From NCBI GenBank assembly GCA_963422465.1, contig OY730169.1, positions 868,001-932,000 on the forward strand: a stretch of 64,000 nt of DNA, given 5' to 3'. Positions within the stretch are counted from its first letter, which is position 1. Every line of letters starts with the position of its first letter. The notes below the pieces were generated by a model. The model ran no database searches. It was not told the origin of the DNA and saw only the letters and a list, made by a program, of their open reading frames with translations. This stretch comes from Lichina pygmaea (Eukaryota; Ascomycota; Lichinomycetes; Lichinales; Lichinaceae). This document shows, in pieces, positions 6,185 through 59,693 of the stretch. Made by a program: the position numbers and the translations under genes.

Positions 6185-7301
6185 GGCCTGCAACGACTCG
6201 AACCTCCACGTGGTGCAGGCTGGGAACCTCAGGGCAGTCGATGGCGGGCGGCTTCCCAGGCTGCTCGTAGTCACTGCACCGAGAGCTAATCAAGTCACCG
6301 GTCGAGCTGCTGGTGTTGCAGAGCGACAGGCCACCGGAGGTGTCGCGCAGGCACTCTGGACACTCCCGTGAAACAGCTACAGCAGAACAGAGGACTGCGA
6401 CCAAGCTTGGGAGATGAAAACCACCTGACAGATGACTACTGTGTACACTACAGCCTGAAGCCAGCCCCACAGCTGGTGGATGTGAAGTCTAGGCGTCTGA
6501 TAGGGCACCTCTGGAGTAGTTGAGAGGAGTTCTCATCACGTCACCCTCCTAGCAGAGTCTCCAGCTAACACGTGAGGATCTGCTAGAGGGGGAGTGGCCT
6601 TGGCACCACGGCGTTGTTAATCGAACACAGACCACCTGTTAAGGAAGAAGAGTGGTCGTACGAGGAGACATCACCGCTCCAGTGCCTAAGGGCTGTGTGA
6701 TAGCCAAAGTGCTGGCTTGATGGTTTTGCCTAAGGCCTTGCCACAAAGTCTCTTCGTACAATCCACAATCTGGGGCCAGGGGACTGGGTTATCCAGTGGG
6801 CCAACAGGTGCAACCGGGGCCCCACAGACGACAGCGGACCAAGGAGAACTCCTCCCTACTTGGTTAGTGGGCTGGAAAGGTGGCCCTGCAGGTGCTGGCA
6901 CAGTCTGCAGAGTCCGTAAGGCCTGCGAGGCATGGTCGGCCTTTGTACAAGAGATCTGCGAAGGTAACACAAAACAGTTAACAACTGCGAGGCGTGGCAT
7001 ATAATGGCAGTGACGGAGGTAGGGCCTGGGCCTACTACGAGACTGTCTATATGGCCTGAGAGGACGGATGCGCATGCCAGTTCGTACGGAGTGCAGGCTT
7101 AGGCTGCAAACGACAAGCTCAGGGAGCAAACTACAGTTGGAGCGTGGGCTCTGGGCTGGTGACCCAGCGCTCCGAAGCAGGATCCCAGGGGTGAGCACGT
7201 ACAGCGGAGTGCAAGAGACCTCGGGACTGTGGGAAAGCGTGGTAGAGACCCTGTGGGGGGGTGCCAACTCTACACTATGTTCTGGTATAGTACGACTGTG
7301 G
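6185..7301 (+). mobile_element. U module, copy 1 (5' partner of a LINE chimera)
   Basis: This is a 1.1 kb unit found four times here (6185, 40825 partial and inverted, 48864, 53629). It begins GGCCTGC and ends ...CTGTGG(CC). No protein frame is conserved between copies, so it is probably non-coding. Its last part can fold into a hairpin (ACTAT...ATAGT at 7275-7292) that contains an ATG at 7277. Copy 1 differs from copies 3 and 4 at roughly one position in seven by eye. The arrangement resembles the WEIRD module joined to truncated MGL LINEs (MINE) in Magnaporthe; this is resemblance of structure, not a proven homology. Confidence 0.75.
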
Positions 7302-9879
7302 TTCATGGGTCTGACCACAGACCTGTACTAACCTGCCTGGACCTGGATCCTCCAAGGAAAATCTGGAAACCAGAAAGAAACTGGAGAACACTGGACTCAA
7401 ACCTTGCAAGAGTAGAGTGTGAGAAGCTACACCTGCCCTTCCACTTCCAAGACAAATATGAAGTGGATAAGTACTTGGAGTATCTTGACAACTTTCTCCA
7501 AGAAATAGCAAGCAAATCCACACAGCTCCAGAAGCAATCTGGCCACTCAGTTCTCTGGTGGAATCAAGAGATCCAAAACAAGGTTAAAGAGGAAAGAAGA
7601 GTAAGAAGAAAAGTGCAAAAAAGGCAAGCAAGTCAAGAGGAACTTGAGCAAGCAACTAAGCTCAAGAAAAAGGCAGTCAGAGATGGAAAACAGAACACTT
7701 TCAGACACCAAATCCATGAGCTGGCCAGCTCTTCAAACTTCTGGAAGCTTGCAAAGTGGGGAAAGTCCAAAGCCAACAAGACTCCTGATCTTCCTCTGGT
7801 TCCTGACCTGGAAACACAAGAAGGAATAGCCAAAACCTTTGAGGAAAAGACTAAAGCCTTCTCACAGCAGTTCTTTCCAAAAGCTCTAGTTCCAGAACCA
7901 GGCTCAGAAAGCTCCCAGACTATCTCTGAGATACAGCTCTCCCAGGAGGTAACATGTGAAGAAGTGGAGCAAATTCTGGCCAAGAAGAAACCTTTCACAG
8001 CAGGAGGGAGAGATAAGCTGCCAAATGGATTTCTGAGAGCTCTGGGGCCTAGGTTCTGCCAAGCTCTAGCTATTCTGACTTCAACATGCTGGAAACTAGA
8101 GTACTTCCCTGAAAGATTTAAGAGTGCAAAAACAGTCTGCTTGAGGAAACCTGGCAAGGGAACCTACAATCAAGCTAAAGCCTGGCGCTCTATAGGTCTG
8201 CTAAACACAACAGGCAAGCTGATGGAAGCTATTGCTGCAGCCAGACTAAGCAAGATAGCAGAAGAAGCTGGACTATTGCCAGATATCCAGATGGGCTTTA
8301 GGAAAGGAAGATCCACAGAAGCAGCACTTTTCCTTCTAACCTCCCAAGTGGAAAAGTCTGGAAGGAAGGCATGGTTGCATCCCTACTCTCACTGGATATC
8401 TCAGGAGCCTATGACAGAGTTCTCCCCAAGATACTACAGCAAATTCTGAAAAGAAAAGGAATACCTGCCTGGCTAGCTTCCTGGATCTACTCCTTCTGTG
8501 ATAAGTGCTCTACCACTCTTGTCTTTGATGATTCTGAGTCTTGTTCAATTCCTATTCATTGTGGAGTTCCTCAAGGTTCTCCATTATCCCCTATTCTTTT
8601 TCTATTCTACATTTCTGAATTGCATGAGACTGTGCATACTCTCTCTTCTGGTGTATCTGCCCTGGGGTTTGCAGATGATACAAATCTGCTTGCTTTTGGT
8701 CACTCCTTGAAAAGTAACCTTCTGAAGTTAAAGAACACACACCTCAAATGTCTATCATGGGCTGCAAGACATGGAATGGTCTTCTCTCCTGAGAAATATA
8801 AAATACTTCATTTTTCCAGAAGAAGATCAGACAATCTTCAGCTCAAGCTCAGACTGGGGAATGTGATTCTCAAACCAAAAGAAGAAGTGCGAGTACTTGG
8901 AGTGTATCTAGATGCAAAGCTCCACTGGCACAAACACCAGAGGATTATTCTTCAAAAAGTACAGAAAGCACTCTCTTCTCTTTCTAGAACTTCCTATTCT
9001 ACTTGGGGCTTTCCAGTTCACACATCACGTCTGGTGTACACTGCTATACTGAGATCTCTACTGAGCTATACAGTGGGGATCTGGTTTAACCCTCTAAGAA
9101 AATCCTCCAATATCTCTTCTCTTGTTTCATTTCAAAACAGATGCCTAAGACTTATTGGGGGTGCCTTGAAAGCCACTCCTTCTTTTCTATTAGAGAGTGA
9201 GCTTTTTCTTCTACCTCTAGACCTATACTTTAAATTTCGCACTGCCTGTTTTCTTTCTTCTATTCAAAACTCCCCTCTCAAATACTTTCTTGACAGTATC
9301 TTTTCCACTATTTCCAGCTATGCCTCTCTCTTGAAGAAACCTTTAAAGGAATCCTCAACTATCTCTCCTAAGTGGAAATTCACTTGGTTAAGTCAAATAA
9401 CTACTAACCAGGCTAGTTCAAAGAAAGAACTACAAAAGCTCTTTACTAAAGAGTGGGAAGACCAATGGGAAGAGAAGAAAAGAAGAAGCTATCCAGGCTG
9501 GCAGACTTTCTGTCAAAAGCCACACAAAAACAATCTGAAGCTCTACAAAGAGTTACAGAAAGCTGAGGCAAGTCTGCTACTGCAAATCAGGACTGGAAGA
9601 ATTGGTCTGGCAAGTTTTCTTTTCAGAGCTGGAGTTCCTGACTTCCCTACCCCACTATGTGTGTGTGGCCAAGCAGAAGAAACTGCAAAACATATCACCT
9701 CTTCATGCTCTCTTTATTCAAGACAAAGACAACAAGTCTCTTTTAATCCCCAAGACTTCACCACTATTATTTCAAACCCAGAGCTACTACAGAAGTTCTT
9801 GTACTGGTTTATGTCTTTGAAAAGACTAAACCAGTTTAATCTAGCTTTCAAACTCCACTATTCCCAATCCAATACCTAG
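7277..9879 (+). pseudogene. Chimeric LINE ORF2: U leader plus reverse transcriptase (one frameshift)
   Basis: From the ATG at 7277 the frame reads MFWYSTTVV and passes into LINE sequence HGSDHRPVLTCLD. It continues through the linker and the reverse transcriptase: RT start QAKAWRSIGLLNT, GFRKGRSTEAAL, then SGAYDRVLP, GVPQGSPLSPILF and GFADDTNLL. It ends with the motif CVCGQAEETAKHITSSC and a stop at 9879. One base is missing near 8352 in a run of A (four here, five in the sister copy at 54941-54946), which splits the frame at about 8350-8450. The AP endonuclease is almost wholly absent. If translated without the slip it would give a protein of about 860 residues with RT but no nuclease. Confidence 0.8.
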
Positions 9880-11316: not shown

Positions 11317-14300
11317 TTAGAAAGAGAGTTGGTGGGCTAGGTTGAACTGGTCAAGACTTTTCAAAGACATAAACCAGAAAAGAAGTTTAGGAAGTAGCTT
11401 GGAGGAGAATAAGATAGATAGGAAATCTTGTAGAGAGAATTAGACTTGTTGTTTTTGGTTTGAAAATTTGTTACAGAAAAAAGTGATGTGTTGGGCTGTT
11501 TCTTCTCCAAAACCACAGATGCATAGAGAGAAGTTAAAGTCTGAAATATTTGCTCTGAAAAGAAAACTGGCCAGTTCTATTCTTGCTAACAGAATTTAAA
11601 GAAATAGACTAGACTCAGCTTTTCTTAAATCTTTGAAGATATTAAGGTTTTTCTTCTGTGGCCTTCTGGTGAACATGTCCCAAATAGCAGAACAATTTCC
11701 TCTGCTTACCTGCCATCTGGCTTCCCATTCTTTGTGGAAAACCTCCTGTAGACTTTTCTTTGAGAAGTCTTGGTTAGTAGTTAGTTGTTCCAGCCAGACT
11801 GTTCTCCAGTTTAGAGAAATAGTTGTCAGACACTTTGGTGTAGTTCTGAGAGAAGAAACATAGAGAGAAATTTGACTGTGTAGTTTGTGGAGAAGTGTAG
11901 AAGGAGAGTTGGGTAGTGTGTTTGAGTAGAAAGATGAAAGAAAACATGCTGTTCTCAGCTTGAAGTATAAGTCTAGAGGGGGTAGAAATAGTTCTGATTC
12001 AAGTAGGAAAATAGGAGTGGCTTTAAAGACACCTCCTATAGTTCTTAAACATTTATTTTGGAAAGTAGATAATGAAATAATATTAGAGAGTTTCTTTTGG
12101 GGATTGAACCAGACTCCTACTGCATAACTAAGAAGAGATCTTAGTATAGCAGTGTAGACATGACATGCTGTTAGGACTGGTAGTCCCCAAGTAGAGTAGG
12201 TTGTTCTGGATAAAGCTGAGACATATTTGGAGGCTTTCTGTGACATGATTTTTTGGTGTTTTTTCCAGACAAGTTTTGAGTCAAAGTAAAGTCCCAAGAT
12301 GCGCACTTCTTCTTTTGGTTGAAGTACCACTTCTCCAAGTCTTAGACTGAGCTGAAGATTGTCTCTTCTTCTTCTAGAAAAATGGAGAAGTTCATACTTT
12401 TCAGGTGCAAACTTCATACCATGTTTTCTTGCCCAGTCCTGACATTTGGAATGTGTAGACTTCAACTTGAGAAGGTTGATTTTCAAGGAGGAGGAGAATA
12501 CAAGAAGATTAGTGTCATCTGCAAAACCAAGTGCTGAAACTCCTTTCTCAGGGGTGTGTACAGTATTGTGCAGTTCTGAGATATAGAAAAGAAATAGAAT
12601 AGGAGAGAAAGGTGATCCTTGAGGGACTCCACAGTATATAGGGAACTGGGGGGATTCTGAGTCATCAAACACCGGAGAGGTAGTACGTGAAGTAGTGAAG
12701 GAAAAGATCCAGGATACAAACCACTTAGGAATCTTTCTCTTAATCAGGATCTTTCTGAGAACTTCTGGCAAGACTCTGTTATAGACTCCAGAGATGTCTA
12801 GAAAGAGAAGACTAGCAACTATTCCTTCTTTCCAGATCTTTTCTACCTGGAAGATCAGAAGAAAAAGTGCTGATTCTGTTGATCTTTCTTTTCTGAATCC
12901 CATCTGGATTTCTGGCAAGAGATTTTCTTTCTCAGCTAGTTCACTTAGTCTTGCAGCTACAATAGCTTCTATTAGCTTCCCAATTGTATTCAGAAGAGCT
13001 ATAGAGCGCTATACTTTTGCTTGACAGTAGGATCTCTTGCCAGGTTTCCTTAGGCAGATTGTCTTGGCTGACTTGTACCTGTCTGGAAAGTATTCCAGTC
13101 TCCAGCAAGTCTCCAAAACCTTAGCAATTCTTTTGTTGAAAGGGTCTCCCAGTGCTCTTAGAAATCCATTTGGTAGAGTATCTTGGCCTGGTGCTGAGAG
13201 AGGTTTTTTCTTCTTTAGAACCTCTTGTACTTCTTCCTTGGAGACTTCTTGGGATAGTTGCCATTCCTGGGTTTCTTCTGGCAGGTCCTGTTCCTCTGGC
13301 TCTGGCTGTAGGGGAAGAGAAGAATTGAGTCCTGAAAGCTTCTGTTTTCTCTTCAAAAGACTTTGCCAGCTGTCCTTGTTGTCCTATAAGTTCTGGGACT
13401 ATTGGTAGGTCAGGAACTTTGCCAGCTTTTTCTTTTCCCCATTTGGCAATTCTCCAGTAGTCCTGGGTTTCTGCTAGCTGGTGGAGATGTGTTCTGAATG
13501 TCTTTCTTTTGGCTTGTCTGATCAGACTCTTTTTCTTTTTAGTTATCTCCTCTAGTCTGGTGGTTTCCTCTTGGCCTTGGAGTACTTTTCTTCTTACTTT
13601 TCTTTCCTCCTGGATTATTTCTTTGATTTCCTGGTTCCACCATGGTACTGCATACCTGGACTCTTTACAAGGTTGGGTTGTCTTGTTTGCAATTTCTTGG
13701 AGAGTTTTGTCCAGTCTTTCCAGGTAATCATCCACTTCTTTCTTGCTAGTAAGAGATGGAATAGGTGGTAGGTTATCAGCTTCTTGTCTTGCTTGACTAG
13801 CATCCAGAGTTCTCCAGTTCTTTTTGTCTGTTCTGGTTTTTCTTGGAGTCTCCAGACTGAGAATTGTGTGCACTGGTCTGTGGTCTGACCCTGTGTGGAA
13901 TCTCATGTTAATTTGTGAGTAAATAAGAGAATTAAGTAAAGAACTTGAAATAAAAGAAAGATCAATTGCTGATGAAGGTGGTTCTAGAAGAGTTCTTGCT
14001 CTTGTTGGTGTGTAGGGAGCTATTGCCAGCTCTAGTCCCCATTTGTCTGTTAGGTTCTTGAAGGATAAGGCCAGTTCTGAGTATAGCTGGCTTGACTTTG
14101 ACCAACTTGGGTGGTGGAGATTTGAGTCTGTCAGGAGAATATGTTCACCCTCTTTTTGGATAGCTTGTTCCAGTAGGTCTAGAAGAGTCTGAGCTGACTC
14201 TCTATAGTTCCTTTGGCTTGTGGGTGTGAAATAGAGGTTGTGGATCCAGAATGACTTTGTTTGAACTCTTATCTCCAAGGAGACTAGATCTTTACTCCAG

Positions 14301-14554
14301 AAAATTGGGCTTATAGATGACCGCAAAATTCTTCTGTTAACAAGAACAAGTGTTCTCCCTAGCTCCTGGCTTTGTAAAGGGTAGAAGGCTGAGAATGTTG
14401 TAGAGATGCTTGATTCTTGGTGGGGGTTTTTCCAGGGTTCTTGCAGAGTGATGATGTCCACTTCCTGTAGTCTAGGGTTTGCCAGTAGAAGTTCTTGGCA
14501 TGTCTGGCTTTTCTGGACATTGTACTGGAGAAGGTTAAGTGTGGAGTAACTTAT
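11317..14554 (-). pseudogene. LINE alpha ORF2: AP endonuclease and reverse transcriptase, broken
   Basis: N-terminal endonuclease motifs are visible: ITLQEPW, LTDSNLHHPSWS and TGSDHRPVHT (residues that make up the DNA-nicking site in this class). Then come a lysine-rich linker, RT motifs (IQMGFRKERSTESALFLL, SGVYNRVLP, GVPQGSPFSPILF, GFADDTNLL) and a C-terminal CxCGxxxETAxHxxxxC motif. The usual ATG is changed to ATA at about 14552-14554. The frame shifts near 13290 and near 13010, and has a stop close to residue 440 of the RT half (about 11595). So it is inactive, although most motifs survive. The family cuts DNA at the target and primes cDNA there. Confidence 0.83.
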
Positions 14555-14555
14555 T

Positions 14556-15957
14556 AATCCTCTTGGCTAGAGTCTTCCAAGATCTCAGTAGCTTTTTTTC
14601 TGAGTATGTTGATTTGGAACTCTGAGTTCTGTGCAAGTGGGAAAGTGGGGAGCTGAGTGTTCAGTCATGAGCTTGAGCATACTCTTAGTACTTCCCCTTG
14701 TTTTCTTTTCTTAGCTTCTTGTCTGTCTTGTAGACTTGGCCCTTTTTCTTGTGTTGAGGGAGTCTGAGGTAGAGCTAGTCTGGGAGCTATTGTGTACCTC
14801 CCTGGTCTTGCTAGCTATACCTCTCTTGCTTTCTGGATTACTTCCTGTTTTTTCTGGCAGGACTTTGACCAGGCTGGGTGGTTTCCCTTGCAGTTTGCAC
14901 ATTTTGGTGTTAGAGTTTCTGGAGAAGTCTGGCAGTCTTTTCTGGCATGCTTTCCTCCACAGGCTGTGCACTGGGCTTGGGCTTGGCAAGTGCGTGCTTG
15001 GTGTCCAAACCTAGCACATTTGTAGCACTGGGTGACTGATGTTGCTAGCAGGGCTGGTTCTACTTCATGTAGAGTGTATCCTAGAACTACTCCTTTCTCA
15101 ATTAGGAGGTTTGCTTGCTCTGGGGTGGCTAGATCCAGATGTAGAGATGTGACTGGCTTCTGGAGGAGTTTGGCTTTTCTGGACCAGTAGGTTCTTAGGA
15201 TGTTGACCTTACTTTCCATCCCAGGGTTTTGGGAGAAGATTGTCTTTTTTGTTTCCTCCAGGTTTTCTGGCTTGAAGTCTTTTGTCTGCACCCCATGGAC
15301 TAGCACTGGAAAGATTCTGGGTGATATCTTGGCCTCTGCTGTAAAGACAGCTGGGATCCAGTCCTTGTTTTCCTCTAGCTGAGTCTTGGCTTGAGGAGTT
15401 TCCAGAGAGATTATAATATCTCCTGAGGGTAGTTTTCTGGCTGCTCTTATTTCTTTTTGGCAGGAGAGTGGTGTTTTCTTCTTGAGAGCTTCCATGAGCT
15501 GGGCTGGTGTTCTGTTTGCTAGTTGGCCAGTCTGAGTTCCAGGTCTGATAGTGATTTCACTGTGGATTCTGGTTGGAACAGGGATTTCCTGTCCTACTGT
15601 TTTCTGGGCTGCCTGAGCATATGTTGGCTTGGTGTTTTGTTTTTGGACTTGTTTCTCAATGCTGTCCAGTCTCTCAAGTATCTTCTGGAGACTCTGGAAG
15701 TTAGGTGAGTGAGTAGAGACATCTTTGTCCAGAGCTTCTGCCACTTTGGATAGAATACTATCCCATGCTTTTTTGATGTGTTGGGGAGCTTTTGTGTGGA
15801 TAAGCTATTCTTCCACTAGCTGGGGAGGTGTCAGCCCCTTCTCTTCTTCTTTTTCTTGAGTCTGGGATTGGTCTGTCAGGGATTTAGCCACTGGGGGTTG
15901 CTGGGAGCTTGGAGAAAGCTGGTTTTCTTTCTCTTTCTCTGGTTTTTTCTTTGACAT
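14556..15957 (-). pseudogene. LINE alpha ORF1: zinc-knuckle RNA-binding protein, broken
   Basis: The start is chosen at the ATG giving MSKKKPEKEKE, which matches the MASKKKKP and MTLKKKKP starts of the other LINEs here. The coiled-coil-like stretch FQSLQKILERLDSIEKQVQK lies early. The C-terminal half holds three CCHC-type knuckles: CYKCARFGHQARTC, CTACGGKHARKDC and CANCKGNHPAWSKSC. There is a stop at about 15807 and another near 14815, so three pieces remain. The role in the family is binding LINE RNA to form the mobile particle. Confidence 0.83.
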
Positions 15958-16638: not shown

Positions 16639-18049
16639 TTTTGATGTCATCCACATAGGCAGTGCCAAAGACGTCAAGAACATCAGGTCCCAAAACATCA
16701 TTGATGTAGTTCTGGAACATGCTTGGAGCATTGGCAAGACCAAAGGGCATGACAAGGTATTCGTAGAGGCCTGATTGTGTGCGGAACACAGTCTTCCATT
16801 CTTCACCTTCCTTCATCTGGATACAGTTGAAGGCACCAACAATGTCAAGCTTGGTGTACCACACAGTTTTGCAAAGCTGGTCCAACATCTCCCGGATCAG
16901 TGGTAGGGGGTAACAGTTCTTGATGGTGATGGTGTTGAGTGCTCTGTAGTCTACACAGAAACACAATCCACCTTCTGGCTTCTTGACAAAGAGGACTGGT
17001 GCAGCAGCAGGTGATGAAGATGCTTGAATGAAGCCCTTGTTCAGGTTCTCTGTCAGGTACTTCTTGGGAACTTTGAGTTCTTCTCTGCTTATGCTGTACA
17101 GAGGTCCAGAGGGTGCCTGGGTTCCTGGTTCCATCTTGATCTTGTGGTCAACTCCTGGGTGTAGAGAAGGAAGCTTGTCAGCGTCATCCTTGCTGAAGAC
17201 ATCCAGGAACTTGTGGTACTGAGCAGGGAGAAGTGTGGCAGGATCCACACACTTCTTTGGCTTCAACACCTGCTCAATGTCTCTCAGAGAAACACTGAAC
17301 ACCTGGTGATCTGGCTTGGCAGCAAGGAGAGAAAATACAGCAGTATTGATGGGGATTGGCGTGGCAGAAAGAGGCTTGGGATCCTGAGGCTTTCCAGCAG
17401 ACGTCTTGGCTTCAAGATCCAAAGAGATTGGATAGCTATTGTTTGACTTGAGGCATGCTGATCAGCAGTGATCGGACTTGAACATGATTGAGGTGTTTGT
17501 CCAATCAATGTGTGGCCTGTACTTCTGGAGCTATGGCATCCCCAGAATCACATCATAGTGAAGACCAGGAGACACAAAGAGAGAGACTTCTTCCTGGTGT
17601 ACGCCATGTGCTATGGTCATGATTGTCTTGGTGAGATGTGTGGTTTGTGACATCTTGCCATCAAACAATCACAATGTGCGTGGGTAGGGGAGAGGTTCTT
17701 GGTGAAGAGATTGCGCAAAGGAAGCACCAATGCAGCCAAATGCTGAACAGCCAGAGTTAATAAGAGCATTGTGTTGTGGTCTGTACTGTACCGTCCTATC
17801 CGAGTATAGGATTAGGGTGAGAGGTGGAAGGCGGGTTGGTTCTCGCAGGAGAGAAGTGTCAAGGAGTGCGAAGGGGTTTGGTGGAACGTGGTGGTGGTGA
17901 CACCTGATCAATGGCTTCATACAAAAGGATTGTATTGAAGTAGATCTAGTTGTCTGGATCACAACATGAGTTGAAGACAATTGTTCCATAAGGGAACTAT
18001 CGCCAGACTATATAGTGCTGGCCTGTCAAGATGATCAAGATTGTCTTGA

Positions 18050-18310
18050 CAGTCTTGATGTCAAGACAGGTGAGATTGTCTTGACAGTCCCACTATGTTA
18101 TGCACCCTGCGTCAAGACAGGTGAGATTGTCTTGACAGTCCCACCATGTTATGCACCGTGCGTCAAGACTGGTGAGATTGTCTTGATGCTTCATGCATCC
18201 TGCGTCAAGACTGGTGAGATTGTCTTGATGCTTCATGCATCCTGCGTCAAGACTGGTGAGATTGTCTTGATACTTCATGCATCCTGTGTCAAGACTCCTG
18301 TGTGTGTCTT
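18050..18310. repeat. Hairpin minisatellite in the family B 3' LTR
   Basis: About five units of roughly 50 bp, each holding GTCAAGACA...TGTCTTGAC or a shortened form, so each can fold back on itself with a stem of 7-9 bp. The matching array in the 5' LTR is at 30440-30705. Confidence 0.85.
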
Positions 18311-18387
18311 GACAGTCACATGACCTCTTGTTAGTTGGTCACTTGACTTCCATGGTGTCCTCTTGCCTGGCCCGTGGCCTGATTACC

Positions 18388-18394
18388 TATAAAT
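18388..18394 (+). promoter_or_regulatory. TATAAAT facing the antisense gene of family B
   Basis: It lies 30 bp from the inner edge of the 3' LTR on the plus strand, 80 bp before an ATG at 18468 and 200 bp before the ATG at 18591. The corresponding place in the related solo LTR has TATATAAAG (about 44599-44607). Its role as an antisense promoter is inference. Confidence 0.45.
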
Positions 18395-18423
18395 GAGTGG
18401 CTCCCATCCCCTGGGTCGTAACA

Positions 18424-18445
18424 CTACCCTCCTCTCCTTCATTCA
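18424..18445 (-). other. Polypurine tract of family B
   Basis: On the element strand the sequence next to the 3' LTR is a run of G and A (GAAGGAGAGGAGGGTAG), the usual place and composition of the plus-strand primer site in LTR elements. Confidence 0.75.
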
Positions 18446-18590
18446 TTGTCTTGATGAATTCTTGAGTATGTCTGCAAAATCACATGCCTCTGCTTACTGA
18501 AACCAACTGGCAGCCCAGATCTGTGATCATAACTTTGTGTTGCTTGCTCCGTGTGACTTCTGTGTTTTGAACCACAAGCCCTGCTTCTGA

Positions 18591-18975
18591 ATGTCTGACA
18601 ACAACAATAAATTGAAGTGCGCTGAATGCACTTGTCGTGGGAAGTCCTGTGTGTCACTTTCTTGGGAGTTGCTGAACATGACTTGGGATAACCTTCGCGA
18701 GGATTTGGCTGTTGATGAGGCCAAGCGGGATGCTCTTGTTGAGCAGCTTGCCAAGCTGCAGGCTTGTGTGTCCTGAAAGCGAAAGGTTCTTGAAGGTGCT
18801 GAAGGCTGAGCAAAGAAGAAGCTCCAGTGCCTTGTTGCTGAAATGGAGGTGGATGGTGAAGACTTGTCGGCAACAGTCATTGACATGTCCGCGCTGCAGG
18901 CCGAGCTGTTCAGTCCTGCCTCTGCCAGAACTGCTGCAGGAGGAGCTGGCAGTTCACGAGGTTTCTGAGTGGTTC
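18591..18975 (+). pseudogene. Antisense small gene of family B: cysteine motif plus coiled coil (decayed)
   Basis: This fossil gene lies on the strand opposite to gag-pol, between the chromodomain and the 3' LTR. The first part reads MSDNNNKLKCAECTCRGK, followed by SC and a heptad-like charged stretch. The downstream sequence still resembles the acidic and hydrophobic end of the family A counterpart (ELFSPASA against ELLSPSDL). The shared motif is CxxCxx[K/R]GxxC. It is broken. I recall many fungal hypothetical proteins with the pattern CAECxxRGxxCV followed by a coiled coil, but could not search. Confidence 0.6.
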
Positions 18976-20415: not shown

Positions 20416-20853
20416 TGTTAAAGGCCAGTCCACGTTCACACAGAATGTGGGTGGTCCTGTCTTCGACCGAGGAGGGCAGGGACTCAATAGATGAATAGCA
20501 AGTGGGGTAACTCTCTTGCTATTGTCGCTCGTAATGTGTGTTCAGCCTGGAGAGCTAATCCCTCCGGGCTCTTTGGGGGTCTTTATACAGATGCCCCAAG
20601 GGGGGGGTCTCCTCGAGGGGTATCATCCTTTTGCGTGGACGAGCTCCTCGCTTAGCTCCTGCTCGTCCACCGGACGAGCTCCTCGCTTAGCTCCTGCTCG
20701 TCCACCGGACGAGCTCCTCGCTTAGCTCCTGCTCGTCCACCGGACGAGCTCCTCGCTTAGCTCTTGCTCGTCCACCGGATCGGTCGGATGTTGTTCCGCA
20801 TGACTCACACCTCTCCCTCGCTTACCTGGGCTGTTCCGGCCTAGGCCTTAACA
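20416..20853 (-). repeat. 3' LTR of the family A element
   Basis: Plus-strand edges are TGTTAAAGG and CCTTAACA. A sense TATA (TATAAAG on the minus strand) is at about 20580-20588. A four-unit hairpin array occupies 20635-20775. Confidence 0.93.
20635..20775. repeat. Hairpin minisatellite in family A LTR (four units of about 35 bp)
   Basis: Each unit is bounded by GTGGACGAGC and GCTCGTCCAC and can fold into a 10 bp stem. A shorter inner stem GAGCT / AGCTC lies within. The same array is at 26656-26796 in the other LTR. Confidence 0.9.
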
Positions 20854-20870
20854 CTATCCCCTCCCTCCAA
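20854..20870 (-). other. Polypurine tract of family A
   Basis: On the minus strand the sequence before the 3' LTR is TTGGAGGGAGGGGATAG, followed directly by TGTTAAGG of the LTR. Its position and composition fit the second-strand primer of LTR elements. Confidence 0.8.
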
Positions 20871-20914
20871 GGGTTCTGTCCCCAGATCCTTTTTGTTCCT
20901 GCTCCTCTTTTGCC

Positions 20915-21487
20915 ATGAACCAAAGCCAGACAACTCGAACTCGTCATCGCGGTTTTCTCTCTTGTCGTGTTGGCAAAATGGGCAAGGAGTCAAAAATCGC
21001 ATGCGGTGCTTGTCGTCGCGACCACGCCAAGTATGTCGTGAGTTCTGCATCGTCTTTTTGTCGTCGGTGCATCGAGAAGGGTCGTCGCTGTGACCTTCAT
21101 CTCTCGGAATCGGAATGGAAGAAGATGGAGCTTGAGCGTGAGCAGCTTGAGGCTCAGCTGCGGGAGACCGATGACCAACTGTCAAAACTGCTTCCCCGGC
21201 AGATCCGCCTCCGCCGGCAGCTGGGTCATCTCTCACAGAAGGAGGCCGATGCCATCCGTCGTGAGCTGTCAGCCATCAAGGATCAAGAGTCCCTCGATGC
21301 TCAGGAACAAGAGGCCCTCCGCATTATCCGCGAACGGGAGGCCTGTCAAGCTGCTGCTCCACTGTCCTTTGAGGACGTCTTCTCTTCGGAGGCTTTGGCT
21401 TCTCTCGAGCTGTTGTCTCCGTCGGACCTGGTCGCTGCGGATTTGCTCGGTGGTAATCCACCAGTTTCTGGTTCATCGCAGAGCTGA
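20915..21487 (+). CDS. Antisense gene of family A: cysteine-rich motif plus coiled coil, 190 residues
   Basis: An open frame on the strand opposite to gag-pol, starting 61 bp from the inner edge of the 3' LTR. Residues about 30-60 hold CGACRRDHAKY and then CRRCIEKGRRC, a set of five cysteines (C-x2-C, then C-x2-C-x6-C). Residues about 62-145 are rich in E, K, R, L and Q in heptad-like order, typical of a coiled coil. The tail holds SFEDVFSSEALASLELLSP. It overlaps the 3' end of pol (to 21324) by about 160 bp in a tail-to-tail way. A decayed relative lies in the same place in family B (18591-18975). It could be a nucleic-acid binding or regulatory protein of the element; the function is unknown. 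It belongs to a fossil element. Confidence 0.65.
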   Translation: MNQSQTTRTRHRGFLSCRVGKMGKESKIACGACRRDHAKYVVSSASSFCRRCIEKGRRCDLHLSESEWKKMELEREQLEAQLRETDDQLSKLLPRQIRLRRQLGHLSQKEADAIRRELSAIKDQESLDAQEQEALRIIREREACQAAAPLSFEDVFSSEALASLELLSPSDLVAADLLGGNPPVSGSSQS

Positions 21488-24400
21488 AGTTCTCGGTTGG
21501 TTCCCACGAATTCTCCTCTTCGTCAAATCCTAACCACTTCACCAGGTACTTGATTTTCCGTCCACTTCTCCGACTGTCTAGGATCCTTTCGACATCGTAC
21601 TCTTCTTCATCGTCCTCGAAGTGCCATTCTGTTTCGATTGCTGCGTCGCTGGGTGCTGGCTCGAGCAGCGAGACATGGAATACTCGGTGTATCCGTGCCT
21701 TTTTTGGCAGTCTCAGTCGGTAGTTGACTTCTCCAGTGCGCTTCTCAATCTCAAACAGTCCGATTCGTACATGATCCAGCTTTTTGCTCGGTCGCTTCAA
21801 GCGCAGGTTTTTTGTTGACAAATAGACCTTATCCCCCCTCTCCAGGGTTGGTCCCTTCAACCTTTTGCTGTTTAGGCGGTGGCTTGTTGTCTTTTGTGCG
21901 GATTCAATTGCAGTCTTCATTTCCTCATGCATAGCAGTGAGTTTTTCGACGTTCGTTGAAGTGCCACTTCCAGCCGCCATCGCTTCCCAGCGGGGGTTTC
22001 TGCCGTAGTTCGCAAAGAACAGTGTCGTGCCCGTCACGCTGTGTTGCTGATCGTTGTACGCAAACTGAGCCATTGGTAGCAGTTCTACCCAATCGTCCTG
22101 TCGGTGGTTGACGTAGTGGCGTAGGTACTGTTCCATCGTCTGGTTTGTTCTCTCAGTTTGTCCGTCTGTTTGTGGATGGTAGGCAGTAGACATCCTTGTG
22201 TCTATCCCTAGCTGTCTTGTCCACGTGTTCCAGAATTTCGAGGTGAAGAGTTTGTCTTGATCCGAGATAATCTTCGTGGGTAGCCCTCACTGGCTAACCA
22301 ATTCTTTGAGCAGGACATTGGCGAGTTCGCTCGCTGTTCCTGTCTCTCGCCACGGGATCAGGTGAGCGTATTTGGTGAGTTTGTCAACAACCACCAAGAT
22401 ACTGTCATATTTCACCTTTGTTACCGGGTCCTCTGACCTCGGCAGCTTCACCACAAAATCCATTGTGATAGTATCCCAAGCCGCTTCTGGGAGGTCCATT
22501 TGTTGACTCTCTCCATAGGGTTTGTGGCGTGACGGTTTGTTTTTCGCACACTCTTCGCAGTTGCGAATAAATTCCGTCACTTTCCGCTTCATTCCGTTGA
22601 AGTGGTAACGTCTCCGGATCTTTTCCAGGGTCTTGTCTCGCCCAGGATGTCCGTGTAGAGGTCCATCGTGATGTTGTCGAATCACGTCCTCTTGTGCGCT
22701 CTCTGGCACTTCTTCCTTGTTCGTGGCCGCAACGTTGTGGCCTAGGGTCAGGAGTGCACCCATTTCTTCAGTTTTCGCTAACTGAGGTTGAGCATAGACC
22801 AGAGTTTGTCCTTTTGTCACTAGGATTGGGCGCTCTTCTGTCGTGTCGTCTGTCGTCATATCAGGCCGTCTGCTGAGCGCGTCCGCTTGTGCGTTTTCTG
22901 ATCCTTTTCGATAGAAGATCTGGAAGTCGTATGAAGCTAAAAGCTCCGCCCATCGGACTTGTCGTCTGTTTAGCTTCTTCGTCGTCGTGAAGTAAGCCAA
23001 ATTCTTGTGGTCTGAGTACACGTCCACTGTGTACTTTGCTCCTTCCAGGTAAGGTCTCCACTCCTGGAATGCGTCGACAATCGCTAACAACTCCTTGTCA
23101 TGAACATCGTACCTGAGTTCTGGGCCAGAGAACTTTCTCGATCGGTATGCGACAGGGTGTAGGCGGTTTTCGGTGTCTGGTTGACACAAGCAAGATCCAA
23201 GTGCTTGGTCCGAGGCATCTGTCTCCATGATGATCCGCCGTCCGGGATCAAATGATGCCAGTATGGGTGCGGAGGTGAACTTCTCTTTCAGCTCCTGGAA
23301 CGCTCTCTCTTGGCTGTTCCCCCATGTGAAGGTTTCTTCCTTCTTTGTTAGTTCAGTCAAGGGTGCTGCTATCCTCGAGTACTCCTTGATGAATCGTCGG
23401 TAGAAGTTCGCAAATCCCAGGAAGGATTGGACTTCTTTGAGGTTTTTGGGTGTTGGCTAGTCTCGTACTGCCGTGATCTTTGTATCGTCCATACGGATTC
23501 CTTCCGTCGTCAGGATCGATCCCAAATATTCCACTTCTTTCACGTGGAAGACGCTCTTATCAAGGCGTAACCTCATTCCTGCTTCTTGGAGCGCATGTAG
23601 GATCTTCTTGACATGCTGTTTGTGCTCCTCCAGGGTTCCATTGGTGTAAACCAAGACATCGTCAATATAAGCGGTAACAAATATATCCAGGTATTGTCGG
23701 AGGATGGCGTTAATGAGTGATTAGAATGTCGCCGGTGCATTCGTAAGGCCGAATGGCATAACGGTATACTCGTAATGCCCGTACCTCGTACGAAAGGCTG
23801 TCTTCCATTCTTCGCCATCTTTCATCCTAACCAGGTTGAAAGCGCCTCGGATGTCGAATTTGGTAAACCACTTGGCTCCTTGGATTCAGTCCTGGATTTC
23901 CGATATTAACGGTAGCGGGTAGCGATTCTTAATCGTGATCGCATTGAGCTGCCGGTAGTCGACACACAGTCGTAATTTGCCGTCTTTCTTTGGCACAAAC
24001 AATATCGGGTATCCGGCCGGTGATGTTGAAGGTCTTATGAACCCTTTCGCTAGGTTCTCGTCCAGGTAATCTCTTAAGGCCTCAAGCTCCTTTGCTGATA
24101 GAGCGTAAATAGGGCCATGTGTGGGTTTCTTTCCGTCTTCCAGCGGAATTTCGTGATCCCACTCTTGGTGTTCTGGTAGCGTCGCGACCACTTCCTCACC
24201 AAACATCTCCTGGTAGTCTTTATACTCACTTGGCAGCTGCGGTGCCTGAGTCTTGCCCACGGCGTCATGCGTGGTGCAAAGTTGATGGTTTCGGGGCTTC
24301 ATCCAAGCCACATAGGCTCGCCCTCGCCGGTGGTGCTTCTTCCACCCTGCATATGAGATCTCTTTGATTCTCACTTTCTCTGGCTCTGCTCGAGTTGCCA

Positions 24401-24911
24401 GACTCCTCTTCGGAAAGACTAGGTGCCTTCTTTTCCAGTCGATCCTTGGGTTTTGACCTTCCAACCACGGAAGACCCAATATAACTTCATGTGGTATCTG
24501 GACCAAGTCGAATTCTTCTGATCCGATTGTCGTACCGTCGACACACAGTCGTAGGTTCTTGGTCTCCTTCGTCACTCGTCCTTGGTCGTTGGAGAGTGGT
24601 GTCCCGTCCACTACCGTTAGTTGGTATGGATTTCTCTTTTCCTGAGTCGGGATCTTGTGCTTCCTGGCAAAACTTTCTGACATGAAGTTGCCAGTAGCTC
24701 CAGAGTCGATCATGGCGTTTGTCAGATGCCCGTTGACTCTCATCTTGATGCGAAAATGCGGACTGCAGGCTGTCGCGTCGAGGCTCTGCTCGACCCCTTC
24801 TCTCCGGAGTGTTGTCTTGCCTGCTCTTCCGACTCCGGATTTGAAGAGCACTGCTAGTTTTTTGAACAACCAAGGCCCTGAGCCTGGCGTTCTGCCGCGT
24901 GTCTTTCGCAT
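21324..24911 (-). pseudogene. Family A pol region: protease, RT, RNase H, integrase, chromodomain
   Basis: Protease: [11 protein letters not shown] (about 24690-24720). [22 protein letters not shown] and [19 protein letters not shown] (about 23940-24050), with the active-site region near 23640-23670. RNase H: LASFDPGRRIIMETDASDQ (about 23210-23265) and YSDHKNLAYFTTTKKLNRR. The integrase zinc finger (H, H, C, C around HHDGPLHGH...NCEECAKN) is at 22530-22690 and the core with YHPQTDGQTERTNQ is near 22150-22190. The chromodomain KYLVKWLGFDEEENSWEP is at about 21500-21560, followed by a basic, proline-rich tail. Broken, about three breaks. Confidence 0.9.
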
Positions 24912-26398
24912 TTTTCAGTGAAGCATAGCTCCCATGCGTCTTCTCCGCAATCATCACGTTCTTTCCCTTGCTGGCTTAGCTGGTGCTTGATGCTCCAGGC
25001 TTTCTTGTGGTATTCTGGGCCAGGGAAGTAGTGCCTTCTCCTTTTCTCTAGGAGATGTTCCTTGCAGTGGTGGTCCTCACATCCTTTCCAATAAGGACGT
25101 CTGCAGGCTGGTGTCGTAGCCTGGTGATAGTCCACTTGCGCTGCGATGTCTCGGGGCTGTGAGATGCTGATGGTGTCGTCCACCCATCGCGTCACTCTTG
25201 CTTCGCCGTCCTCCGACAAGGTCGCATCCTGTCGTCGGAGTAGTGGTGTCTCGGGAACTGGTGGCATGCCGGTTATGTCAATCTCGTAGTCTGTTGTGTC
25301 GAATTCGGAGATCAGGTCATCCTCCCAATGAACCTTATCGATCTGGTCTTGGATTGTGTGCAGGTCCTCCAGTGACCTCTGCAGATTGTTCTCCAGTCTT
25401 TCGATGTGCTGTCTGAGATTGTCCTCCTGTCCGAGGAGTGTTGCTTCTGACCGGTTCATGGGTAGCGTACCTCTGGGAGCCCTCGGTGGCTCCTGAATGC
25501 CCTTGCCTTTCCAGGCACCGGTGGCATTCAACTGCTTACCCTTGCCTTCTTTCTTCCTCTTGCTTTGGCAGTTGGCTGCGAGGTGTCCTACCTTCTGGCA
25601 ATTGTAACACTTCCGTGTTTCTTTCTTCTTTGTTGCCTGTGGTGTTGTTGCATCGATCTCCATGGGTGTCAAGCCGTACTTGTCTTGTGCTGGCGCTGTC
25701 TTTTTGCCCCATGGCCTTGCATGCTTGCCTCGCTTCTCGAGTTCTCGTTCAAACTGTCGGTCGTCGATGCGTACCGCTGTGTCAATCATATCCTCGAGGT
25801 CGGTGGGTCGGTCTCCTCGTGCGATGTCATCCTTGACTTGTTCCTTGAGAGCTTGGTAGAATAGTGCCGTCAAGGCACTGTCTCCCCATTGCGTCCTCAC
25901 TGACAACTGTTGGAACTTCGCCGCGAAGTCTGATGCTGACCCTGTCTGCCGTAGTGCTTGGAGCTTTCGTTCCGCATCTCGTTCTTCATCAATGACCCCG
26001 AAGGTCTTCTTCATCTGGGTCTTGAAGGTAGAGAATCTCCCAATGATCTGCCGTGTCGCGGTCTCCATGCTAGAGGGATCTTCCTTGTTGTCGAGGAAGT
26101 CTCGTAGGTAGACATTGAACCAGGCAAATGTCGGTCTGTCCAGGTAGGAAGCTGCGAACAGCACCTTCTCCTGTTCCGTAGGGAATTGTGCGGCGTTGAA
26201 TCCGTAGTAAAGCTCAAGCTGAGAGAAGAATAATTCCAATCCCCCTCGTGATCCATTGTACCTCTTCGGCGTACCTACCTTCAACGGCTTTGGAGGTAAG
26301 GTGAGGGTGGTAGGGACAGGTGGTTCCTGGGCTTGCGCCTGAGGCGCAGCCCGAGGTTGGCCTGCCTGCGAAGGGGTAGGGCTGCGTGGATCTGCCAT
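24854..26398 (-). CDS. Family A gag region (514 residues)
   Basis: Starts [11 protein letters not shown] about 38 bp after the LTR. The middle carries a retrotransposon gag fold region ([39 protein letters not shown]). One CCHC knuckle, [14 protein letters not shown], is at about 25568-25609. A long acidic, glutamine-rich tail follows and overlaps the start of the pol region, so pol is probably reached by frameshifting or read-through as is known for Gypsy elements. Part of a fossil element; gag itself reads open. Confidence 0.88.
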
Positions 26399-26436: not shown

Positions 26437-26874
26437 TGTTAAAGGCCAGTCCACGTTCACACAGAATGTGGGTGGTCCTGTCTTCGACTGAGGAGGGCAG
26501 GGACTCAATAGATGAATAGCAAGTGGGGTAACTCTCTTGCTATTGTCGCTCGTAATGTGTGTTCAGCCTGGAGAGCTAATCCCTCCGGGCTCTTTGGGGG
26601 TCTTTATACAGATGCCCCAAGGGGGGGGTCTCCTCGAGGGGTATCATCCTTTTGCGTGGACGAGCTCCTCGCTTAGCTCCTGCTCGTCCACCGGACGAGC
26701 TCCTCGCTTAGCTCCTGCTCGTCCACCGGACGAGCTCCTCGCTTAGCTCCTGCTCGTCCACCGGACGAGCTCCTCGCTTAGCTCTTGCTCGTCCACCAGA
26801 TCGGTCGGATGTTGTTCCGCATGACTCACACCTCTCCCTCGCTTACCTGGGCTGTTCCGGCCTAGGCCTTAACA
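26437..26874 (-). repeat. 5' LTR of the family A element
   Basis: Nearly identical to 20416-20853. The array of hairpin units is at 26656-26796 and the TATA motif at about 26601-26609. The LTR ends next to the GTTTCAGCCTC-type leader before gag. Confidence 0.93.
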
Positions 26875-30169: not shown

Positions 30170-30821
30170 TGTTGCGGTCTGTACCGTACTGTCCTATCCG
30201 AGTATAGAATTAGGGTGAGAGGTGGAAGGCAGGTTGGTTCTCGCAGGAGAGGAGTGTCAAGGAGTGCGAAGAGGTTTGGTGGAATGTGGTGGTGGTGACA
30301 CCTGATCAATGGCTTCGTACAAAAGGATTGTATTGAAGTAGATCTAGTTGTCTGGATCACAACATGAGTTGAAGATGATTGTTCCATAAGAGAACTATCG
30401 CCAGACTATATAGTGCTGGCCTGTCAAGACAATCAAGATTGTCTTGACAGTCTTGACGTCAAGACAGGTGAGATTGTCTTGACAGTCCCACCATGTTATA
30501 CACCCTGCATCAAGATAGGTGAGATTGTCTTGACAGTCCCACCATGTTATGCACTCTGTGTCAAGACTGGTGAGATTGTCTTGATGCTTCATGCATCCTG
30601 TGTCAAGACTGGTGAGATTGTCTTGATGCTTCATGCATCCTGCGTTGAGACTGGTGAGATTGTCTTGATACTTCATGCATCCTGTGTCAAGACTCCTGTG
30701 TGTGTCTTGACAGTCACGTGACCCCTTGTTGGTTGGTCACTTGACTTCCATGGTGTCCTCTTGCCTGGCCTGTGGCCTGATTGCCTATAAATGAGTGGCT
30801 CCCATTCTCTGGGTTGTAACA
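30170..30821 (-). repeat. 5' LTR of family B (652 bp)
   Basis: Same length as 17772-18423, with about thirty substitutions by eye, nearly all transitions. Hairpin units lie at 30440-30705 and TATAAAT at 30786-30792 on the plus strand. Confidence 0.9.
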
Positions 30822-34550: not shown

Positions 34551-35479
34551 TATTTTTATTTTTATTTCATTCTTACACTGATAGTAGCTTTACAGTCATG
34601 CAGATCTTCTAGCTAGTAGCGAACCTCTTCAGAAAACCTTTAAAGAAATAAAAACTGAAGGCAGAGTGTGACTAGAACATGTAACAAAAGAAATCTTGAA
34701 GTGTCTGGAAGAAGAAAAAAGATCTAGGTATTAGATTGGGAATAGTGGAGTTTGAAAGCCAGGTTAAACTGGTTTAGTCTTTTCAAAAACATAAACCAGT
34801 ACAGAAACTTCTGTAGAAGCTCTGAGTTTGAAATAATAGTGGTGAAGTCTTGGGGATTAAAAGAAGCTTGTTGTCTTTGTCTTGAATAGAGAGAACATGA
34901 AGAAGTGATGTGTTTTACAGTTTCCTCTGCTTGGCCACACATACATAAAAAGGTAGCAAAATCAGGAACTCCAGCTCTGAATAGAAAACTTGCCAGACCA
35001 ATTCTCCCAGTTCTGATTTGTAGTAGTAGACTTGCCTCAGCTTTCTGTAGCTTTTTGTAGAGCTCCAGATTGTCTTTGTGTGGCTTTGGGCAGAAAGTCT
35101 GCCAACCTGGGTGGCTTCTTCTTTTCTTCTCTTTCTATTAGTTTTCCCACTCTTTAGTAAAAAGCTTTTGTAGTTCTTTCTTTGAACTTTTCTTTCTAGA
35201 ATTTGCTGTAGAACCTCAGATAGAACTCTGTCATAGACTCCTGAAATATCCAGAGAGAGAAGAGATGCAACTATGCCTTTCTTCCAGACTTTCTCCAATT
35301 GGGAGGTCAGGAGGAAAAGTGCTGACTCTGTTGATCTTTCTTTCCTGAAGCCCATCTGGATTTCTGCCAATAGACTAGCTTCTTCTGCTACTTTGCTTAG
35401 TCTGGCTGCAGTAATAGCTTCCATCAGTTTACCTGTTGTGTTCAGCAGAGCTATAGGGTGCCAGACTTTAGCTTGATTG
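34551..35479 (-). mobile_element. LINE subfamily beta 3' fragment with an internal deletion
   Basis: T-rich tail at 34548-34575, then sequence matching the beta copies. It runs from the tail to ...GATTG, where the family C LTR starts. About 1 kb is missing at about 35195-35205 relative to 8450-9415: sequence coding for LQQILERK joins directly to SKKELQKLFTKEWEDQW. That removes the FADD active site. The junction shows only a few bases of shared sequence (AG). Confidence 0.83.
34724..35479 (-). pseudogene. LINE beta ORF2 remnant lacking the RT active site
   Basis: Translated pieces show MEAITAARLSKVAEEASL, IQMGFRKERSTESALFLLTS and SLDISGVYDRVLSEVLQ. After the deletion the C-terminal part includes CVCGQAEETVKHITSS-type sequence. 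It is also frameshifted near 34930. It cannot encode an active polymerase. Confidence 0.8.
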
Positions 35480-35795
35480 TGTCACAGTTCTGGCCCAGTT
35501 GCGTATCTGGCACAAGTCACACACCTTGCTGGGAAGTTCCATCTGCACTGTTGCCTGTTTGCTAGTCACGCACCTTGCCGGGAAGTTCCATCTGCACTGT
35601 TGCCTGTTTACTCCACTGTATCCCCTGCCTATAAGAACTTCTCCTGCTCCCCCAGCTTCTTCTCTTCTTCTTTTCTCTTTTCCTTCCTTGTCTTTTGTTT
35701 TGTACATCAATCCAAGTCTCAAGTCTCAAGCCAAGTCAGGTCAAGGTTACTGGATCAGTTAGGCTTGAGTTCTACTCTGCCATTGCCTTGTCACA
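35480..35795 (+). repeat. 5' LTR of plus-strand family C (316 bp, with an internal tandem duplication)
   Basis: Like the 274 bp LTRs at 31945-32218 and 40551-40824, but longer because a block of about 48 bp (from GTCACxCACCTTGC to GCCTGTTT) is present twice at about 35516-35612. CCTATAAGAAC is at about 35628. Confidence 0.88.
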
Positions 35796-35853
35796 CTACA
35801 AAAGACCTACCCAACCATAACACACTTCACCAAGCCATGTTCATGTCCTTGTC

Positions 35854-36790: not shown

Positions 36791-36899
36791 CCTTGGTCAT
36801 CGTCACACCCAAGGACATGAAAAGGATCTCCATGTTGGCTATCTGTCTCCAGACCAGCAATTGGACAGCAAGTGCTTGTTTCTTCCTTGTATCCTAGAT

Positions 36900-40450: not shown

Positions 40451-40532
40451 CAACTTCCATGAGAAATACCCAAGGAAACCACAGCCACAGAACTACACCC
40501 ACAAGCGGTGTGAGGCTCACAGGAATTTGCCA

Positions 40533-40550
40533 TGTGAAGGAGAGGGGTAA
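40533..40550 (+). other. Polypurine tract of plus-strand family C
   Basis: GTGAAGGAGAGGGGTAA directly precedes the TGTCAC edge of the 3' LTR. Confidence 0.75.
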
Positions 40551-59280: not shown

Positions 59281-59693
59281 TGTTAAGGCCCAGGCCAGAA
59301 CGGCTGAGCCGACCGAAGCGAGTGTACAGAGGTACACGGAACAATGTTCACCCGACCCGGTGGACAAGGTGGACGATGTGTAACCAGCTCGTCCAGCTTG
59401 TCCACGGGAACAATGTTCACCTGACCCGGTGGACAAGGTGGACGATGTGTAACCAGCTCGTCCAGCTTGTCCACGCAGAAAGCTGATACCCCTCGGGAGG
59501 ACCCCCCCCCCTCAGGCTCCTGTATATAAGAACCCAGATAGCCGGAGAGAATAGCTCTCCAGGCTGAACACACATTACGAGCGACAATAGCAAGAGAGTT
59601 ACCCCACTTGCTATTCATCTATTGAGTCCCTGCCCTCCTCGGTCGAAGACAGGACCACCCACATTCTGTGTGAACGTGGACTGGCCGTTAACA
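59281..59693 (+). repeat. 5' LTR of the plus-strand family A element (413 bp)
   Basis: TGTTAAGGCC to GTTAACA. Two copies of a nested hairpin unit (GTGGACAAG / CTTGTCCAC outside, TGGACGA / TCGTCCA inside) are at 59360-59475. TGTATATAAG follows at 59521-59530. Confidence 0.93.
59523..59529 (+). promoter_or_regulatory. TATA motif of the family A 5' LTR
   Basis: TATATAA about 50 bp downstream of the hairpin array, in the usual place of an LTR core promoter. Equivalent motifs stand at about 3133 and, on the minus strand, about 20580 and 26601. Confidence 0.65.

Follow-up and report, generated by a model that had tools for sequence, protein, structure and literature searches.

Retrotransposons of plants and of Botrytis are known to carry antisense genes beside their 3' long terminal repeat (LTR) for which no function has been assigned, and the locus analysed here raises the question of what such a gene may do for the element that carries it. 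The window, i.e., the whole stretch of 64,000 nucleotides from contig OY730169.1 of Lichina pygmaea (GCA_963422465.1, positions 868,001 to 932,000), contains a young Gypsy element, family A, nested within an older element, family B (LTRs at 17772–18423 and 30170–30821); both carry gag-pol on the minus strand (Table 1). Between pol and the 3' LTR of family A, on the opposite strand, lies an open frame at 20915–21487 to which an earlier note on this DNA had drawn attention. We put at about 0.58 the probability that the protein encoded there is the element's own transcription factor, acting on an array of inverted repeats in its U3, with activation as the favoured effect.

A gene under purifying selection

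Copies were sought in 32.5 Mb of the genome, on 8 contigs. The search returned 276 candidates for the A gene and 487 for the B gene; 150 were scored in each case, and all 150 matched. An A' query (P0028) returned 281 candidates, and among the 150 scored there were 61 A' copies at 84% identity or more. Of these, 53 were free of stops, but stop-free fractions were left out as evidence of selection because the copies had been chosen by their similarity to the gene. Wherever the gene was located, namely at 30 A, 30 B and 1 A' loci, the integrase adjoined on the opposite strand (61/61); two more loci, in which no gene was located, were skipped in this check. The frame is an antisense accessory gene of the aORF-3R kind, that is, a conserved frame between pol and the 3' LTR, antisense to gag-pol.

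Patterns of substitution confirmed that the frame is a real gene under purifying selection. The earlier note had named equal rates at synonymous and other sites among copies as an observation that would speak against it; the comparison was run, and the ratio of nonsynonymous to synonymous substitution (dN/dS) between subfamilies was 0.14–0.22. For A and A', dN was 0.213 and dS 1.028, a ratio of 0.21 (144 pairs, 12 of 30 A copies being set against 12 of 18 A' copies). The B1/B2 ratio was 0.16 (16 pairs from four B1 and four B2 copies, a usable full frame being present in 4/10 B2 loci), while B1/B3 gave 0.14 and B2/B3 0.22 (4 pairs each); since dS is near saturation, all of these ratios are rough. 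A six-frame control was applied to one pair from each comparison. The gene's own frame had a dN/dS of 0.15 (A/A') and 0.09 (B1/B2) and was free of stops. Of the five other frames, four ranged from 0.94 to 1.87 and the minus-2 frame gave 0.40 and 0.21, but with 7 and 6 stops. The argument of the earlier note, that position, orientation and motif shared by two families speak against a chance frame, is thus borne out by the 61 loci, by selection and by the six-frame control.

The frame of 190 residues was found open and antisense to gag-pol as described, and only its start has shifted. The first ATG lies 61 bp inward of the 3' LTR, and a TGA occurs at codon 8 in 9/30 A copies (the best-scoring from the genome search), with other stops in none of the 30; therefore, translation probably begins at the second ATG, at 20978. 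At its other end the gene overlaps the end of pol, with its stop codon at 21324, by 164 nt. The decayed frame reported for family B does occupy the same place and orientation. Its start had been put at 18591; however, the gene begins earlier, being alignable over 18393–18962 with a likely ATG at 18468, and full-length relatives exist.

Among the protein database matches listed were A-like and B-like relatives and a further relative, P0137; a wide distribution in fungi, which the earlier note thought possible, goes beyond what these matches establish. Of the B-type relatives retrieved, P0137, a protein of 170 residues, diverged most (63% over the region searched); it comes from a 1257-bp contig (source lgn) which, if it were a transcript assembly, would speak for expression. 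A search of viral contigs produced 63 stretches fitting the pattern, none of them confirmed, and a search of plasmids for relatives found nothing.

A six-cysteine cluster in the predicted protein

The cysteine motif of the earlier note is present, but it proved to be merely the second half of a cluster of six. Less decayed copies of both A and B read C-x2-C-x6-C-x(8-11)-C-x2-C-x6-C, and a long helix comes next, then an acidic tail; the spacing between Cys3 and Cys4 is x8 in A relatives, x11 in B1 and B2, and x10 in B'. This is the spacing of the Zn2Cys6 (Gal4-type, PF00172) domain, C-x2-C-x6-C-x5-12-C-x2-C-x6-8-C. The full motif is hidden in the window, because the A copy, alone among 30, has Cys3 replaced by Tyr and the cluster of the B copy is interrupted by a stop; the complete motif occurred in none of the window's six frames and in none of 20 shuffles. 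All six cysteines were present in 29/30 A, 31/35 B1 and 10/10 B2 distinct copies. Across 18 aligned proteins, five of the six were invariant and the sixth was conserved in at least 90%.

Database comparisons pointed in the same direction. Zn_clus was the commonest Pfam match among the 18 proteins (10/18 at E up to 10; the next domain matched 2/18). No Pfam domain, Zn_clus included, scored above the cut-off in the proteins examined in detail (antisense proteins of about 157–190 residues), and the window A copy gave no zinc cluster in Pfam, owing to its lost cysteine. When a profile of the 18 proteins was compared with 177,635 PDB sequences, GAL4 chains took ranks 1 to 3 (E = 0.023, 0.043 and 0.099), and 8 of the 25 matches listed at E up to 10 were GAL4, HAP1/CYP1, CBF3B or LAC9, the rest being mostly coiled-coil. 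P0006 alone retrieved LEU3, PUT3, LAC9 or Pho7 in 7 of 8 matches listed (E = 0.19–1.7).

A template-free AlphaFold2 model of the A' protein had pLDDT values of 85–89 in the cluster blocks and 81–97 along a helix of 70 residues (63–132). Foldseek listed seven PDB matches for this model at E up to 10, namely Pho7 (twice), Leu3, Gal4 (twice), Hap1 and a chain of the CBF3 complex; six of the seven are Zn2Cys6 domains, and the CBF3 chain is probably the Zn2Cys6 subunit, judging by its length. None of these matches (E = 0.13–5.1) was significant. VIA-align gave 16 Zn2Cys6 proteins among 17 entries, the top row being an unrelated helix match (erlin). These structural matches are those listed, and other fungal regulators may match too. 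The predicted fold is good for A' and weaker for B'. In the last 50 residues of four proteins there were 6–10 acidic and 0–4 basic residues, such that the tail is acidic and hydrophobic.

From these similarities, the antisense protein is very probably Zn2Cys6-like, and it is presumed to bind zinc and DNA. The fungal regulators GAL4, HAP1, LEU3, PUT3 and PPR1 share the six-cysteine spacing; in such proteins the cluster is followed by a coiled coil and the sites are inverted repeats. However, those regulators are host genes, whereas the antisense proteins are borne by an element. The A and B genes are likely to be akin, to judge by their layout, the six aligned cysteines, the Trp that follows and the coiled coil.

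U3 arrays and a proposed regulatory circuit

Inverted repeats are arrayed in U3, flanked by the sense TATA box on one side and by the antisense gene on the other. Beside the A and B arrays of the window (Table 1), less decayed B1 arrays read TCGAGAC-N10-GTCTCGA, B2 arrays GTGAGC-N3-GTGAGC-N3-GCTCAC-N3-GCTCAC, and A'' arrays GGCAGAG...CTCTGCC. An antisense TATA box is present in B1 and B2. The best hexamer occurred at least 4 times per orientation in A, 7 times in B1, 6 in B2 and 8 in the window B copy, each count being reached in 0/500 shuffles. Palindromes within a single unit were significant for A (matched in 5 of 2000 shuffles) and for A'' (10 and 60), and marginal for B1 (75). Element C, a further Gypsy element of the window (35315–40824) beside which no six-cysteine open reading frame (ORF) was seen, was without hexamer excess in the 5' LTR, and its 3' LTR stretch yielded a weak pair (31/500); this is a small negative control of one family, with approximate LTR ends. 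A B2-type LTR stretch at 44095–44483, with a GTGAGC array, adds a further array type to the window.

Each class of gene was accompanied by half-sites of its own type in 30/30 A, 9/9 A', 6/6 A'', 33/35 B1, 10/10 B2 and 1/1 B3 loci, or 89/91 distinct loci, where the half-sites were picked by eye after the sequences had been seen and copies within a family are not independent. The count omits the two window copies (WIN_A and WIN_B, duplicates of L001 and L031) and 19 loci fetched without U3. Since A and A' half-sites are indistinguishable (both GGAC[G/A]AG), genes and sites covary at the level of the classes A/A', A'', B1, B2 and B3. The two B1 loci that lacked an array, L050 and L082, had by eye apparently the same unrelated repeat upstream; L082 keeps an open gene along the 155 aligned residues, and a stop interrupts that of L050. 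In the B3 locus L083 (1–867) the LTR is inverted relative to the antisense gene, perhaps through rearrangement between LTRs, and the locus is weak evidence for that reason. With 2 mismatches or fewer allowed, a 25-base B2 word occurred 745 and 783 times across the genome (reversed control, 0); among 100 places listed, many were about 50 bp apart and some clusters lay about 6 kb from another, like two LTRs. Many changes among A copies over 20978–21487 are, by eye, from Arg to Cys, His or Gln, suggesting CpG decay, and B1 half-sites shift in like manner from TCGAGAC to TCAAGAC.

The gene and U3 also diverged together. A and A' were 97–100% identical over most of the integrase and about 97% over R/U5, dropping to 61–79% in the gene and 59–74% in U3. 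The drop starts in the chromodomain end of pol: dS was 0.025 over the first 180 integrase codons (one pair), 0.33 over the 70 that follow and, in the gene itself, about 1.03. B1 and B2 were all but identical in R/U5 up to the TATA box, with identity then at 0.52–0.63 through U3, 0.65–0.77 in the gene, 0.81–0.87 just past it and 0.91–1.00 deeper in the integrase, which was compared by nucleotide identity in this instance. The dip was absent when two B1 copies were compared as a control. During reverse transcription, U3 is copied from the 3' end of the RNA and R/U5 from the 5' end, such that a mosaic of this kind results if the template is switched once near the end of pol. On these sequence comparisons, gene and U3 appear to have been exchanged together as one cassette twice (A/A' and B1/B2). 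In the B1/B2 comparison (one pair) the zinc cluster was the least conserved part, at 64% versus 75% and 76%, and the half-sites differ; in A/A' the Cys2–Cys3 loop is nearly identical and the half-sites likewise. Cluster divergence would thus track half-site divergence, as it should do in a protein whose cluster reads the sites, albeit in very few cases.

We infer that the gene is expressed as a small Gal4-type DNA-binding protein composed of a Zn2Cys6 cluster, a coiled coil and an acidic tail, which would dimerise through its long helix and bind the array of inverted repeats that separates, in its own U3, the sense promoter from the antisense gene's start. Once bound, it would most likely activate transcription of gag-pol and of its own gene, the main alternative being repression. 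Because the gene, the polypurine tract and U3 are contiguous at the 3' end of the RNA, a single template switch could replace regulator and sites jointly while gag-pol and R/U5 stay, and families would change their regulatory specificity in one step. The nucleic-acid-binding helper and the copy-number control at which the earlier note had guessed both fall within this favoured class of function; that note had not seen the complete six-cysteine spacing, the arrays in U3 or the exchange of the cassette.

Besides the choice of half-sites by eye, a number of observations weigh against such a function. Among comparisons of the protein, the Pfam, PDB sequence and Foldseek scores all fell short of formal significance, the best Zn_clus score (20.0 bits, for P0006) missing the gathering score of 21, and the Cys2–Cys3 loops are not classical. 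The B' model was poorer (mean pLDDT 66.6), with the helix order as in A', and 3 of its 8 VIA rows were Zn2Cys6 proteins, ranked below five unrelated helix matches. Comparison of the A and B profiles with hhalign gave a probability of 0.1% and no significant match. Concerning selection, one A/A' pair had a dN/dS of 0.49 where pol lies opposite versus 0.18 elsewhere; the signal was also weaker among copies (raw nonsynonymous/synonymous values of 0.032/0.096 within A and 0.036/0.067 within A'), as expected if many copies decay after insertion. Hexamer arrays were weak in A' (37/500) and B3 (53/500), and the B2 array was visible with hexamers only (heptamers, 499/500); single-unit palindromes were weak in A' (146/2000), B2 (412/2000) and B3 (899/2000). 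The pattern scan saw no antisense TATA box in A and A'. The canonical sites of Gal4-type proteins are a CGG...CCG pair, which was not recognised in any array. L091 has an A'' gene with mostly A'-type sites, and one or two stray words of another type occur in L026, L083, L084, L102, L103, L104 and L110. Finally, gene and U3 are adjacent, so that linkage alone suffices for their co-inheritance.

Four other explanations were weighed. The same protein and sites could work with the opposite sign, the protein being a repressor that keeps sense transcription and copy number in check. We consider this unlikely. It has a precedent in HBZ of human T-cell leukaemia virus type 1 (HTLV-1), a basic leucine zipper (bZIP) factor from a 3' LTR antisense transcript which, in the accessible parts of PMC3185765, lowers sense expression, and self-limitation would fit an element with at least 150 scored copies; the acidic, hydrophobic tail is more like an activation region (a weak argument). 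Alternatively, the protein could bind DNA elsewhere, at host genes, in chromatin or in targeting integration, while the U3 arrays hitch-hike or serve host factors. Linkage would then explain the joint exchange without recognition, and for antisense proteins of plants the accessible text of PMC7264820 and PMC11963269 gives a nuclear location or predicted DNA binding, with targets unknown; however, inverted hexamer arrays stand out in the LTRs of A, B1 and B2, and the gene-less element C (one control family) showed at most a weak pair, and we regard this explanation as rather improbable. It is very improbable that the RNA matters rather than the protein, through control by an antisense transcript or double-stranded RNA: sense and antisense RNAs would indeed pair across the 164-nt overlap in A, but an incidental reading frame sits poorly with dN/dS of 0.14–0.22, with frame specificity and with six conserved cysteines. 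A chance open frame, though such frames are generally common opposite coding DNA, can be set aside almost entirely, since it is refuted by the six-frame control, most of the gene (20978–21323) has no pol opposite, and selection and the absence of the motif from the window's six frames and from shuffles speak against it as well.

Neighbouring elements and known systems

The LTR pair of family A differs at 2/438 positions and is flanked on both sides by a 5-bp target duplication, CAGTG. Its Pfam matches comprised gag with a CCHC knuckle, protease, RNase H, the integrase zinc domain, SH3 and chromodomain; by these matches it is a Ty3/Gypsy chromovirus, with RT-RNaseH (reverse transcriptase and RNase H), integrase and chromodomain in Gypsy order. 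Family B is assigned to the chromoviruses by similarity to the pol of family A, Pfam having covered family A frames. The antisense gene of the A' element lies just past the end of the window (window-equivalent 64646–65173). Element C has 35% identity to A over 275 residues (integrase and chromodomain), and its pol similarity stops about 45 bp short of a stretch repeated at the other end (40551). At 7229–9879 and 11596–15744 there are two remnants in opposite orientations. Their ORF translations resemble reverse transcriptase in both and show cysteine-rich knuckles in the second, and we take them to be non-LTR (LINE-like) elements.

Table 1. Coordinates of the features discussed, as positions in the window
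Feature	Coordinates	Strand	Remarks
Family A Gypsy element	LTRs 20416–20853 and 26437–26874		gag-pol on minus strand
Family A 3' LTR	20416..20853	-	438 bp; U3 on the high-coordinate side
Sense TATA-like box, family A LTR	20582..20587	-	TATAAA; pattern scan
Family A U3 array	20637..20779	.	35-bp unit, 4.1 copies, inverted arms GGACGAGC-N16-GCTCGTCC
Polypurine tract region, family A	20854..20880	-	Putative, from its position adjoining the LTR; read on minus strand
Family A antisense gene, first ATG	20915..21487	+	190 aa, open
Family A antisense gene, likelier second ATG	20978..21487	+	Zn2Cys6 region, helix, acidic tail; Cys3 is Tyr here
Family A gag and pol	21324..26398	-	Several open frames; Pfam on four frames
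Family A 5' LTR	26437..26874	-	Same array as 3' LTR at 26658–26797
Family B 3' LTR	17772..18423	-	Ends taken from sequence
Sense TATA-like box, family B LTR	18009..18014	-	Palindromic TATATA
Family B U3 array	18060..18296	.	TCAAGAC...GTCTTGA
Antisense TATA-like box, family B	18388..18393	+	80 bp ahead of likely ATG
Decayed family B antisense gene	18468..18962	+	Several stops, one between Cys3 and Cys4
A' element 5' LTR	59281..59693	+	gag-pol then runs to window end

Antisense genes of this position have been seen before. Zhao et al. 2011 reportedly described one, brtn, in Boty-like Gypsy elements of Botrytis cinerea. The accessible parts of papers citing that work (PMC8365987, PMC4227169, PMC5987419 and PMC7264820) place brtn as an antisense gene at this place in Boty; the likeness drawn here is one of position and orientation, from these descriptions only. 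In its accessible sections, the review PMC7264820 reports that antisense products lack clear similarity to other proteins, save for domains in two plant elements. The antisense ORFs of the plant elements Retand (TRP28), Grande (gene23) and RIRE2, as far as the accessible accounts go, are like those described here in position, orientation and presence in most copies, although in Lichina this last is no measured figure, since loci were found through the gene itself and gene-less copies were uncounted. The TRP28 protein of Retand probably binds DNA, according to a prediction in the accessible text of PMC11963269; that text gives Retand a TRP28 domain and mentions neither a Zn2Cys6 cluster nor a matched U3 array (it uses neither 'zinc' nor 'transcription factor'). 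In a literature search that was thin on subscription journals, no report was noticed of a retrotransposon-encoded Zn2Cys6 protein or of a matching U3 array. Antisense genes of this kind are therefore already known (brtn; those of Retand and Grande in plants), while the Zn2Cys6 type appears new.

The nearest functional analogue may be HBZ, which is likewise an antisense gene of the 3' LTR and encodes a leucine-zipper DNA-binding factor that regulates the LTR of its own element; unlike the protein described here, it is a bZIP rather than a Zn2Cys6 protein, belongs to a human retrovirus and acts via CREB and p300/CBP (both from the accessible parts of PMC3185765). The two would at most work alike, HBZ being no relative.

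In more general terms, we hold it an even chance that fungal chromoviruses carry exchangeable cassettes, each composed of a self-encoded Gal4-type factor and a matching U3 operator array and swapped by template switching, which would give families private specificities that depend neither on host factors nor on one another. If the proposed function is true, the odd position of the gene would be explained, in that reverse transcription would carry regulator and U3 along jointly, and the function would be directly testable by simple binding assays. Fungal retrotransposons would then have a counterpart to HBZ and other retroviral regulators, and their families would offer natural protein-site pairs for studying the evolution of Zn2Cys6 specificity.
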